Shown here: one piece after another, positions 18,029 to 40,346 of the stretch | Position numbering within the stretch: the stretch's first letter is position 1 | Layout: each line of letters starts with the position of its first letter | Assembly: GCA_013349615.1 (NCBI GenBank) | Contig: DUZJ01000002.1 | Location: 35,882 to 99,881 of the forward strand | DNA length: 64,000 nucleotides | Direction of reading: 5' to 3' | Source: Planctomycetota bacterium | GTDB taxonomy: Bacteria > Planctomycetota > Phycisphaerae > Sedimentisphaerales > Anaerobacaceae | Position numbers and translations under genes: made by a program | The notes under the pieces: model-generated | The model's input: only the letters and a program-made list of their open reading frames with translations | Told to the model about the DNA's origin: nothing | The model's database searches: none

Positions 18029-19330
18029 TCAATTAATTGTTTCCATTTTTGCGCCGATACTTTCCATCAATTCCACGTATCCAGGGAAAGTAACGCTCAT
18101 TGCCTCAGCGGTATCAATGCTGGTTTGACCATCTAAGTTTAAGCCCGCCAGCGACAGGGCCATCACCGTTCGGTGGTCACTTCTGCCGTTCAGTTCGGCC
18201 GGTTTAGACTGGCCGCCTTGTATTATAAGGCCGTCTGGCAATTCTTCAATATCTACAGCCATTTTTTTCAGTTCCTCGGCCATGCATTTGATTCGGTCGG
18301 TCTCTTTACTTCGTGCCTGGGCGACGTTTACAAGGCGGGTTTCACCTTCGGCAAAAGCAGCGGTAACAGCCATAGCCGGCAGTGCATCGGGCGTTTTATT
18401 CATATCTATCTCGATACCTTTGAGCGGGGCGGCTTTAATGGTTGTACGGGCGGTTCGCGAACCGCCCCTACTTCGCTCGATGCTGATGTCGGCACCCATC
18501 GCTTTCAGGTAATCGACCACCGCTTTGTCCGGCTGACTGTCCGAGAAATCCAAACCAAGCAGTGTTACCTCATCTGCCGCCAGGGCGGCGGCGCAGAGAA
18601 AGAATGTTGCACTGGAAAAATCGGCAGGTATCGTGGCATCAAAGCTCTTGTACTTTTGACCGCCTTTGATTTTGAATTTGCGCAACTGCTGTTTTTCGTA
18701 TTCTATTTGCTGTCTATCGAGCCAGTCGAGGGTCATTTGCACATAGCCCGGTTCGTTGAGCAGCGTAACGTCTATCTCGGTGTCTTTGGTTGCCAGTGGC
18801 GTGCACAACAGCAGGCTGGTCAGATATTGGCTGGTAGTTGCAGCAATCGTAGTTTTTCCGCCTGTTAGTTTTCCGGTTACCTCGACGGGTACCTTGCCGT
18901 TATTTTTTAAGCTGGCGCATTTTGCTCCCAAATCGGCCAGGGCGTCCATTAACGGCCCGACAGGACGGGTCTGGATTTGCTCATCACCGGTGAAGGTTGT
19001 GGACTGGTCGCTGTCGGCCAGGGCAGCCGAACCCATTGCGATACGCAGCGTCGTGCCGGAATTGCCCACGTCGATAGGGTGCTCTGGCGCGGTGAATTTG
19101 GCGCCTGTGCCGATTACCTTCCAGATTTCCGAATCGGATGAATCAATCTCGGCACCTAATGCTCGATAGCAATTCACCGCTGCTTCTGTATCACCTGAAA
19201 CCAGCGGCTTACGGATGGCGCTTTCGCCGAGGGCTCCCGAGGCAATTGCGACGGCACGAATAGTGTGTGATTTCGAGGCCGGAATGACCACCTCACCAGC
19301 AAGCCGGGATTTTTTCACAATCAACTTCAT
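18029..19330 (-). CDS. aroA: 3-phosphoshikimate 1-carboxyvinyltransferase (EPSP synthase)
   Basis: VVIPASKSHTIRAVAIAS, DVGNSGTTLRIAMGSAALAD, DGDEQIQTRPVGPLMDAL-type motifs, TIAATTSQYLTSLLLCTPLA, NKTPDALPAMAVTAAFAEGETRLVN. Confidence 0.95.
   Translation of the reverse strand: MKLIVKKSRLAGEVVIPASKSHTIRAVAIASGALGESAIRKPLVSGDTEAAVNCYRALGAEIDSSDSEIWKVIGTGAKFTAPEHPIDVGNSGTTLRIAMGSAALADSDQSTTFTGDEQIQTRPVGPLMDALADLGAKCASLKNNGKVPVEVTGKLTGGKTTIAATTSQYLTSLLLCTPLATKDTEIDVTLLNEPGYVQMTLDWLDRQQIEYEKQQLRKFKIKGGQKYKSFDATIPADFSSATFFLCAAALAADEVTLLGLDFSDSQPDKAVVDYLKAMGADISIERSRGGSRTARTTIKAAPLKGIEIDMNKTPDALPAMAVTAAFAEGETRLVNVAQARSKETDRIKCMAEELKKMAVDIEELPDGLIIQGGQSKPAELNGRSDHRTVMALSLAGLNLDGQTSIDTAEAMSVTFPGYVELMESIGAKMETIN
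18444..18471. repeat. REP-like palindrome GTAGGGGCGGTTCGCGAACCGCCCGTAC located in frame inside aroA
   Basis: Near-perfect inverted repeat centred on TCGCGA; translated as R-G-G-S-R-T-A-R within the aroA ORF. Confidence 0.85.
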
Positions 19331-38086: not shown

Positions 38087-38459
38087 TAATTAAAACTCAC
38101 AGACAATAGCAAACGAGATTGTGTCTCTTATTTACGCTGATATATTTACAATTATCGGCCTTCAGACAAAGCGGCGAACAAATCACCTGTTTGATAGGTA
38201 TAAATAGATTATTGGCCGTTTTTAGATAGCATAAATGCCTCCGGGGAGGCATGGCAAGCGGCAACCTCATAACTACTTTGCGTGCTTACGGTTATGACAG
38301 ATAAAATCAGTAATTTTCTCGATTATCAACAATTTTGTAATAATCATTAATCAACAATGATTTAAAAAGTTAAGCGAACAAGGTGTTAAACCGATAAATT
38401 TCATTAGTTAGAAGGGTGTTTTTGAGGTTTTTAGGACCTTGGTGGTTTCCAAACGTTCT

Positions 38460-38511
38460 GTGGCACGGCCATCTTGGCCGTGTATCCATGGGCTGGAAGC
38501 CCATGCCACGT
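38460..38511. repeat. Two-hairpin palindromic repeat, copy B
   Basis: gTGGCACGGCCATCTTGGCCGTGTATCCATGGGCTGGAAGCCCATGCCACGt; see copy A. Confidence 0.85.
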
Positions 38512-38576
38512 GTATTACGTTTTGGGATACTTGGAAAGGATTAAAGACAGCGGTGTATTTTTGGAGTTTTGGTGAG

Positions 38577-40346
38577 ATGAATTCGGTATCAGAGGTCAGA
38601 GGTCAGAGGTCAGAGGTCAGAGGGCAGAGGACAGAGGTCAGAGGTCAGTTTTGGGTCTTCTGCTTTCTGTTTTCTGTTTTCTGTCTTTTGTTTTCTGTAG
38701 GTTGCGGCAATAAGTTTTTTGACCCAACACAAATAGGCAGGTTCCGTCCTGTTCCAGCGGTGAATGTGATACTGGATTCATTGGGTGTGGCGGAGGAGGC
38801 ACCATCAGCCTGGGCCAATGCCGAGGACCCGAAGCCGATAGATGCCATGGTTTTTGATACTGATTACGCGTTTGGTCCCGGTGATGTCGTCAGGGTAACA
38901 GTTTTCGAGCTGCTCCAGGAAGGGGTTGTGTTTACAAACGATTATATTGTTACCGAGACCGGCAAGATATCCATACCGGAAGTTGGAGAAGTTGATACGG
39001 CAGGCTTAACCGAATCGCAACTTGAGGAAGAGATAAGACAGATTCTTTCGCCGAGCATATTAAAAGAGCCATCGGTTATCGTGACTTTACTCAACTCGCA
39101 ACAGCGTATGTTTTCAATACTCGGTGACGGTGTGCCAGGTCCAGGCAGGTACATTATACCGCGGAGCGAATTTAGATTGGCTGATGCGCTTGCAGTAGCG
39201 GGGGGGATAAGTCAATTTAACATAAGCTACGTTTATGTTTCACGTTCTGTTACGGGCAAAGAGTCAATAAATGAGCCGATTGAGTCAGACATTATTGAGC
39301 AGGAGTCCGGCAAAAATGCCGGAGAGCAACTGAACGAGCCTAATAAGCAGCAGTTGCTGGAGACAATAGCACCTACTACTCTGCGAAGTAGCGCTTCGCT
39401 ACGTAGCACGCCGTGGGCGAAACACGGTGTCAGGGCGACCACACGGGGTCGCCCCTACCAACGACAGGGATTAATGATGGCTGCTGCGGAGATGATAACT
39501 GATAAGGAACTCGCCGATGTGGCTTTCCCGGAAGGGATTGGAAAGGTTAGCGATGGTGAGCAGGAGAGGACAGACGGCAAAGATGCCGTGCTTGAATCAT
39601 TCAACAAGCCGGCAGGGCAAGAGGCAATAGAGAGCCGGATAAATCAGGAAAAAGTTGAGCGTATTGAGTGGATTTTTCAGGACGGAAAATGGGTTCCCGT
39701 TCAAATCGGTCGGCCCAAAACGACAGAGCCGGTGATGAAAGTTGAGCCTGAAAAAGTAGAGCCCAAAAAAGTTAAGCCTGAAAAAGCACGTGGTCGGCTT
39801 GCTGAAAAGGTGCCGCTGGACTTTGAGTGGGAACAGATAGGAGAAGCAGGAGTGCAGACGCGGGTCATAAAGATTCCTGCCGATGGGCTGTTCGCCGGTG
39901 AACCTCGGTATAATGTTGTAATAAGGTCTGGCGATACAATTCACGTACCGGTTGACATTATTGGTGAATTTTGTATTATGGGTAATGTCAACGGTCAGGG
40001 ATACATTAACATTACAGGTCGGCCAATGACTTTGAAGATGGCTATAGCCGCGGCGGGTGGCCTGGGGGCTTTGGCTTGGCCGAAGCGGTGTGAAGTGATA
40101 AGAAGGGTCGGCAAGAAGAAGGAAGAAATCGTGATGGTCGATTTGGATAAGATCGCCCGGGGCGAGCAGCCGGATTTCTTTATTAAGCCCAACGATTTGA
40201 TCAACGTCGGCACACACCCGACTGCAAGATGGCGTGCAGTTCTGCGAAATGCGTTTAGGGCCACTTATGGGTTCGGTTTTATTTATGACCGTAATTTTGC
40301 GGATAGAGATTTCGGTACTCGCAGACCAATACCACAATTATTTTAG
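38577..40346 (+). CDS. Polysaccharide export (Wza-like) outer-membrane lipoprotein with long low-complexity insert
   Basis: FGPGDVVRVTVFELLQEGVVFTNDYIVTETGKISIPEVGEVDTAGLTESQLEEEI; second SLBB-like part 'VVIRSGDTIHVPVDIIGEFCIMGNVNGQGYINITGRPMTLKMAIAAAGGLG'; lipobox LLFSVGCG. ATG at 38577 rather than the upstream ORF start, which runs through a repeat. Confidence 0.85.
   Translation: MNSVSEVRGQRSEVRGQRTEVRGQFWVFCFLFSVFCLLFSVGCGNKFFDPTQIGRFRPVPAVNVILDSLGVAEEAPSAWANAEDPKPIDAMVFDTDYAFGPGDVVRVTVFELLQEGVVFTNDYIVTETGKISIPEVGEVDTAGLTESQLEEEIRQILSPSILKEPSVIVTLLNSQQRMFSILGDGVPGPGRYIIPRSEFRLADALAVAGGISQFNISYVYVSRSVTGKESINEPIESDIIEQESGKNAGEQLNEPNKQQLLETIAPTTLRSSASLRSTPWAKHGVRATTRGRPYQRQGLMMAAAEMITDKELADVAFPEGIGKVSDGEQERTDGKDAVLESFNKPAGQEAIESRINQEKVERIEWIFQDGKWVPVQIGRPKTTEPVMKVEPEKVEPKKVKPEKARGRLAEKVPLDFEWEQIGEAGVQTRVIKIPADGLFAGEPRYNVVIRSGDTIHVPVDIIGEFCIMGNVNGQGYINITGRPMTLKMAIAAAGGLGALAWPKRCEVIRRVGKKKEEIVMVDLDKIARGEQPDFFIKPNDLINVGTHPTARWRAVLRNAFRATYGFGFIYDRNFADRDFGTRRPIPQLF
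38591..38700 (+). repeat. Two adjacent 7-bp microsatellites, (AGAGGTC)~8 and degenerate (TTTTCTG)n, encoding the lipoprotein N-terminus
   Basis: agaggtc x4, agagggc, agaggac, agaggtc x2; then ctttctgttttctgttttctgtcttttgttttctg. Confidence 0.9.
39377..39460. repeat. Multi-hairpin palindromic element in frame inside the wza-like CDS
   Basis: GCGAAG-tagcg-CTTCGC, CCGTG-ggcgaaa-CACGG and GGGCGACC-acacgg-GGTCGCCC hairpins; translated as TLRSSASLRSTPWAKHGVRATTRGRPYQRQG. Confidence 0.8.

Follow-up and report, generated by a model that had tools for sequence, protein, structure and literature searches.

The aroA gene of this genome carries a short palindrome within its coding sequence, which raises the question of what this segment is, how it entered a conserved gene and what it did to the encoded protein. 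The locus was examined within the window, the whole analysed stretch of 64,000 nt, and the copy in aroA was resolved into the following features:

18029–19330, minus strand: aroA, encoding 3-phosphoshikimate 1-carboxyvinyltransferase (EPSP synthase; TIGR01356), 433 aa, frame unbroken
18443–18472, minus strand: the codons spanning the element, read as SRGGSRTART and lying where relatives have 7 host nt (net +21 nt)
18444–18471, minus strand: the element, a type A singlet REP of the GTAG class, GTAGGGGCGGTTCGCGAACCGCCCGTAC, its 28-nt unit defined from 49 exact copies
18448–18467, no strand: the 20-nt core GGGCGGTTCGCGAACCGCCC, a perfect palindrome inside the REP copy
18468–18471, minus strand: the GTAG tag at the end of the 28-nt unit

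The two 14-nt arms of the 28-mer pair with one mismatch, and the core is present as a single copy in the whole window. The open reading frame matched the NCBIfam AroA model TIGR01356 with an E-value of 2.7e-118, exceeding the cut-off. An earlier reading of this DNA, made from its sequence only, had described a near-perfect palindrome inside an intact aroA frame, and both parts of that description were borne out.

The copy number was then determined in the genome assembly (3.77 Mb in 157 contigs, about 80% complete). The core was found at 62 sites with up to three mismatches, while a control with the reversed pattern gave 0, so the 28-mer is far from unique in the genome. Alignment of the 49 exact copies by orientation revealed a unit of exactly 28 nt with sharp edges, GTAG-GGGCGGTTCGCGAACCGCCC-NTAC, in which GTAG starts 46 of the 49 copies, N is mostly G or T and TAC is near-constant. 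The G/N mismatch near the foot gives the palindrome a direction. The bases beyond the unit are near random, with a weak excess of A immediately 5′ of GTAG, and no target consensus or microhomology was detected at the edges (13 and 14 matches of 48, with 12 expected). The element thus has the size and dispersal typical of GTAG-class REPs, which are palindromes of 20–40 nt with stems of 6–13 bp, a GTAG tag at one end and a mainly extragenic location. Fifty-two of the 62 copies were examined as stretches; 13 of these lie in coding sequence as judged by orthologues, and about six additional copies, one of them in addA, lie in long open reading frames; for the others no coding position was shown. 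Assignment of the segment to the GTAG-class REPs is near certain. The sequence-only reading had called it REP/MITE-like, and its REP-like nature holds; the target-site duplication expected of a DDE-type MITE is absent, as described below. A literature search on the type A core sequence returned nothing relevant.

A sister family, type B, is present in the same genome in about 40 copies, seven of which form inverted pairs a few bases apart. Pairing of the type B stem is kept by matched changes (GACC/GGTC, AACC/GGTT, GGCC/GGCC, AGGC/GCCT). One type B copy lies in the window:

39433–39458, minus strand: a GTAG REP of type B, GTAGGGGCGACCCCGTGTGGTCGCCC, translated in frame as part of a 635-aa open reading frame (38439–40346, plus strand)

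The 635-aa product, which we take from its appearance to be a polysaccharide export protein, contains the translated REP as ..GVRATTRGRPYQRQ.. and starts with tandem RGQRSEV repeats. Proteins from four other loci of this genome (L014, L004, L026 and L012) contain further repeated-looking peptides in frame, for example SPVRNS..KISNG and PVPSEVEG, which look like the products of more families of small in-frame repeats.

The effect on AroA was assessed by comparison with relatives. The interval between the ISI and TIK motifs is ERSRGGSRTART, 12 residues long, while most of 29 relatives have 5 residues such as GPTSV or EPSSV; the segment is absent from the relatives, and its residues are not conserved in other EPSP synthases. 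At the DNA level the gene reads ATCGAGCGAA, the 28 nt and AACCATT, against ATTGGGCCAA, CCTCAGT and AACTATC in the related genome G003, with the flanks aligning right up to the element. Twenty-eight nucleotides therefore stand in place of seven, a gain of 21 nt and 7 residues. The proposal that 9–12 residues had been added was correct as to an extra loop segment and too high as to its size, because seven host nucleotides are missing. The loop was positioned by alignment with PDB sequences, which places a 7-residue gap at a turn where the Coxiella enzyme has a longer natural loop. In the EPSP synthase fold this site presumably corresponds to an inter-strand turn that precedes the conserved DMN..PDA segment. 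The aroA gene of another member of the genus (G004, L061) has a 21-nt insertion with two small hairpins, TGCCGTAAGGCATCCTGCGGA, in the same turn; it was considered as a repeat and rejected, as it occurs once in that genome, and is merely an independent loop extension. The turn tolerates changes of length, and the REP copy is most likely neutral, adding 7 residues to a length-variable turn upstream of the DMN..PDA segment. Functional selection of the added peptide is extremely improbable: rpoC and aroA are among the essential genes that carry and keep the element, but four different peptides, from both strands and two frames, are found in unrelated proteins at places where relatives vary in length, and in AroA the Coxiella enzyme is naturally longer at the same turn.

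The 13 coding copies were compared with orthologues using queries in which pieces of several proteins of this genome were joined end to end, the matches being realigned protein by protein. All 13 genes have orthologues without the element. The host genes encode AroA, RpoC, an MTA phosphorylase, a TPR/glycosyltransferase, a PpiC-like isomerase, an FGE-sulfatase/BNR protein, a GH116 protein, a PQQ-type repeat protein, a GH2 galactosidase, a 3-keto-disaccharide hydrolase-like protein, a laminin-G protein, a glucanase-like protein and one protein without a named family. The coding copies are read in either orientation and in two of three possible frames, giving SRGGSRTAxT, VGAVREPP, TGGSRTAPT and VRAVREPP. 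The third frame would meet a stop, TAG from the tag or, on the opposite strand with T at position N, TAA; none of the 13 uses it, which fits selection against stops and not one preferred peptide. The likeness in principle to the Rickettsia palindromic elements, suggested from the sequence, holds in that an in-frame palindrome is present in conserved genes (aroA, rpoC and 11 others). In the linker of the MTA phosphorylase (L021:1286-2215, plus strand, and L105) a second palindrome, CCCCGCCCCTATCAGGGGCTGGG, adjoins the REP, and the orthologue in G003 has a different palindrome, CCCCGCCCCTCGGAGGGGCGGG, in this linker, which is a palindrome hot spot.

Twelve coding sites could be aligned cleanly with an empty counterpart; the MTA phosphorylase was left out because of the adjoining palindrome, and AddA (L004) because its linker alignment is ambiguous. 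The host nucleotides missing at these sites number 7 (aroA), 19 (rpoC), 4, 13, 16, 13, 4, 7, 13, 10, 4 and 19, giving a net change of +9 to +24 nt that is every time a multiple of three. None of the 12 comparisons revealed a target-site duplication, host bases being lost instead. Identity of the flanks was 0.70–0.72 over the five bases nearest the element, against about 0.85 farther out. These comparisons suggest that in 12 genes the 28 nt overwrote 4–19 host nucleotides rather than simply adding to them. The alternative is that the element was inserted as a plain 28 nt with no loss of host sequence, and that separate later deletions brought back the frame or trimmed the loop. As 28 is not a multiple of three, a plain insertion within a gene needs correction to survive, and the orthologues are only 70–85% identical, leaving time for later deletions; against this, the smallest frame-restoring corrections, to +27 or +30, are seen at 0 of 12 sites, the losses run from 4 to 19 nt, and the 28-nt unit is whole with host sequence aligning near both edges. 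Plain insertion followed by deletion is on this evidence unlikely, while still deserving weight. Relatives also differ in the length of some linkers (rpoC in G022, the L043 gene in G003), and with orthologues this divergent and a few linkers varying, loss of host bases during insertion is the plausible and better reading, short of proof.

The candidate agent of this spread is a clade of REP-associated tyrosine transposases (RAYTs). In Bacteroides sp. 51 (L257) a 158-aa Y1 transposase gene has inverted pairs of the type A palindrome on both sides, as in a typical REPtron. In G096, of the same family as the genome studied here, the palindrome lies inside the RAYT gene with one mismatch and an exact copy follows about 60 nt behind the gene, and RAYT genes of one Nitrospirota, one Desulfosudis and one Calditrichaceae genome contain the type A palindrome in frame in the same loop, right after MPNHLHG. 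Four RAYTs were tested against NCBIfam, and the best family for each was the REP-associated tyrosine transposase, with 54.7–79.8 bits, below the cut-off of 80. Within this one clade, GTAG REPs in frame after the HuH motif and in the same loop were observed in several phyla (L181:6201-6866, minus; L222:3933-4499, minus; L128:1-282, plus; L296:1483-2019, plus; L300:1483-2070, plus). Judged from these sequences, it is as if the gene held its own substrate. In a RAYT of a Myxococcota genome (L254:1453-2382, minus) this loop holds a long QAQIGQ repeat, and tandem GTAGGGGC motifs adjoin the gene. Two relatives (L305:469-3246 and L306:463-3240, both plus) have a valyl-tRNA synthetase-like open frame with a complete Y1-type transposase inside it and no stop.

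The genome studied here has a RAYT of the same clade (C35:32665-33213), found with a protein query at 48% identity and an E-value of 5e-47. A provisional statement that no such RAYT is present was dropped, since the Pfam Y1_Tnp model alone had missed it. A type B REP occupies that same loop in this gene, whose TAG stop comes from the tag of a further type B copy. In the assembly, 80% complete, no RAYT was found with the exact type A palindrome inside it or at its flanks. The co-occurrence of RAYT and copies is not complete: G029 (95% complete) and G077 (only 64% complete) have type A copies, yet no RAYT of the clade was found in either. The link of the type A REP to the RAYT is strong by association, and the transposase is the putative agent of the spread. 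A palindrome of another origin, either a Rickettsia palindromic element or a MITE that a DDE transposase mobilises, would be in keeping with in-frame palindromes in conserved genes, a hallmark of the Rickettsia elements, and with the position of the type A copies away from the genome's own RAYT; the GTAG tag, the 28-nt length, the lack of target duplication, the REPtron in Bacteroides sp. 51 and the copies inside RAYT genes make such an origin very improbable.

Across GTDB genomes the exact 24-mer GTAGGGGCGGTTCGCGAACCGCCC was found in at least 115 stretches, whose record titles point to more than 20 phyla, including Chloroflexota, Cyanobacteriota, Myxococcota, Nitrospirota, Bacteroidota, Desulfobacterota and Omnitrophota; the chance expectation in the 257 billion bases is far below one. 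It is present in 12 of 161 genomes of the order, and genomes of the same genus have 0–1 copies. Among these relatives, no RAYT of the clade was matched in G001, G002, G003 or G007, and G004 gave weak matches only. The expansion of type A in the present genome looks recent, because its cores are almost all perfect. The exact 24-mer was also found in 19 stretches of IMG/VR contigs (L315–L333), putatively viral, a possible route between phyla. An identical 24-mer in many phyla might instead mark an immobile protein-binding site under selection (for gyrase, a regulator or a terminator) with the peptide as a by-product, and host proteins can bind REPs (PMC3733652). Such a site is hard to reconcile with the patchy distribution among close relatives, the presence in unrelated genes in both orientations, the loss of host sequence at the sites and the physical association with RAYT genes, and is considered improbable.

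The reading best supported, with a probability of roughly 0.75, is that the aroA segment belongs to the GTAG class of REPs as a non-autonomous singlet exactly 28 nt long, which was spread by the RAYT clade, replaced a short host stretch and was then filtered by selection. The RAYT, an HuH single-strand endonuclease, would recognise GTAG and the hairpin on single-stranded DNA and spread the REP, the incoming copy would replace a short stretch of host DNA, and selection would retain the copies that keep the frame, avoid the TAG-stop frame and lie in tolerant loops. More tentatively, and with the odds against it, the overwriting may be done by a RAYT-loaded single-stranded hairpin copy that replaces a few to about 20 host bases with neither target sequence nor duplication, the RAYT genes holding an in-frame copy of their substrate that serves as an internal template.

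Intragenic GTAG REPs are already known. Di Nocera et al. (2013, PMC3733652), whose survey comprises 24 families, described GTAG REPs with intragenic members and remarked on repair genes, linkers and TAG stops, and the repeats studied here resemble these in the GTAG at one end, the 20–40 nt palindrome, the high copy number, the RAYT association, the copies in open reading frames (including recombination/repair genes) and the tag TAG serving as a stop codon. Compared by description with those 24 families, type A differs in consisting of singlets only, sequence-perfect and identical across more than 20 phyla, and in the host bases missing at its coding sites. In REPIN/RAYT systems (Bertels and Rainey, 2011, PMC3116915; Corneloup et al., 2021, PMC8266576) inverted REP pairs likewise flank the RAYT gene, as in Bacteroides sp. 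51. There the doublet is the mobile unit, no singlet excision was found (PMC3116915) and singlets are seen as decaying, whereas this genome has about 50 near-perfect singlets and REPs lie in frame inside RAYT coding sequences. The Rickettsia palindromic elements (as covered in PMC3733652) similarly create new peptide segments in conserved protein genes; compared by description, the aroA element is in a different host, only 28 nt long and of the GTAG class, whereas the R. conorii intragenic repeats RPE-4 and RPE-6 belong to the CGTC class (PMC3733652). At the short variable loci of E. coli and other species, most changes are replacements rather than simple indels, part of the loci having palindromic units (PMC2884548), but the segments there are mixed, while one defined 28-nt element is present at every site here. 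Next to the papers cited here, what looks new is the replacement signature in 12 genes including aroA and rpoC with the frame always kept, the presence of REPs in frame inside RAYT genes, and an abundant, sequence-perfect singlet family common to many phyla although singlets are thought immobile.

The spread of REP sequences has been called unsolved (PMC8266576). Coding sites allow readable comparisons with empty sites, and the twelve described here favour replacement over simple insertion. With a RAYT clade and an exact 28-nt substrate named, a direct test is possible. The element provides a route by which short peptides, in four readings, are written into conserved proteins, RpoC and AroA among them, and if the overwriting is true, REPs would rewrite coding sequence and not only add to it.
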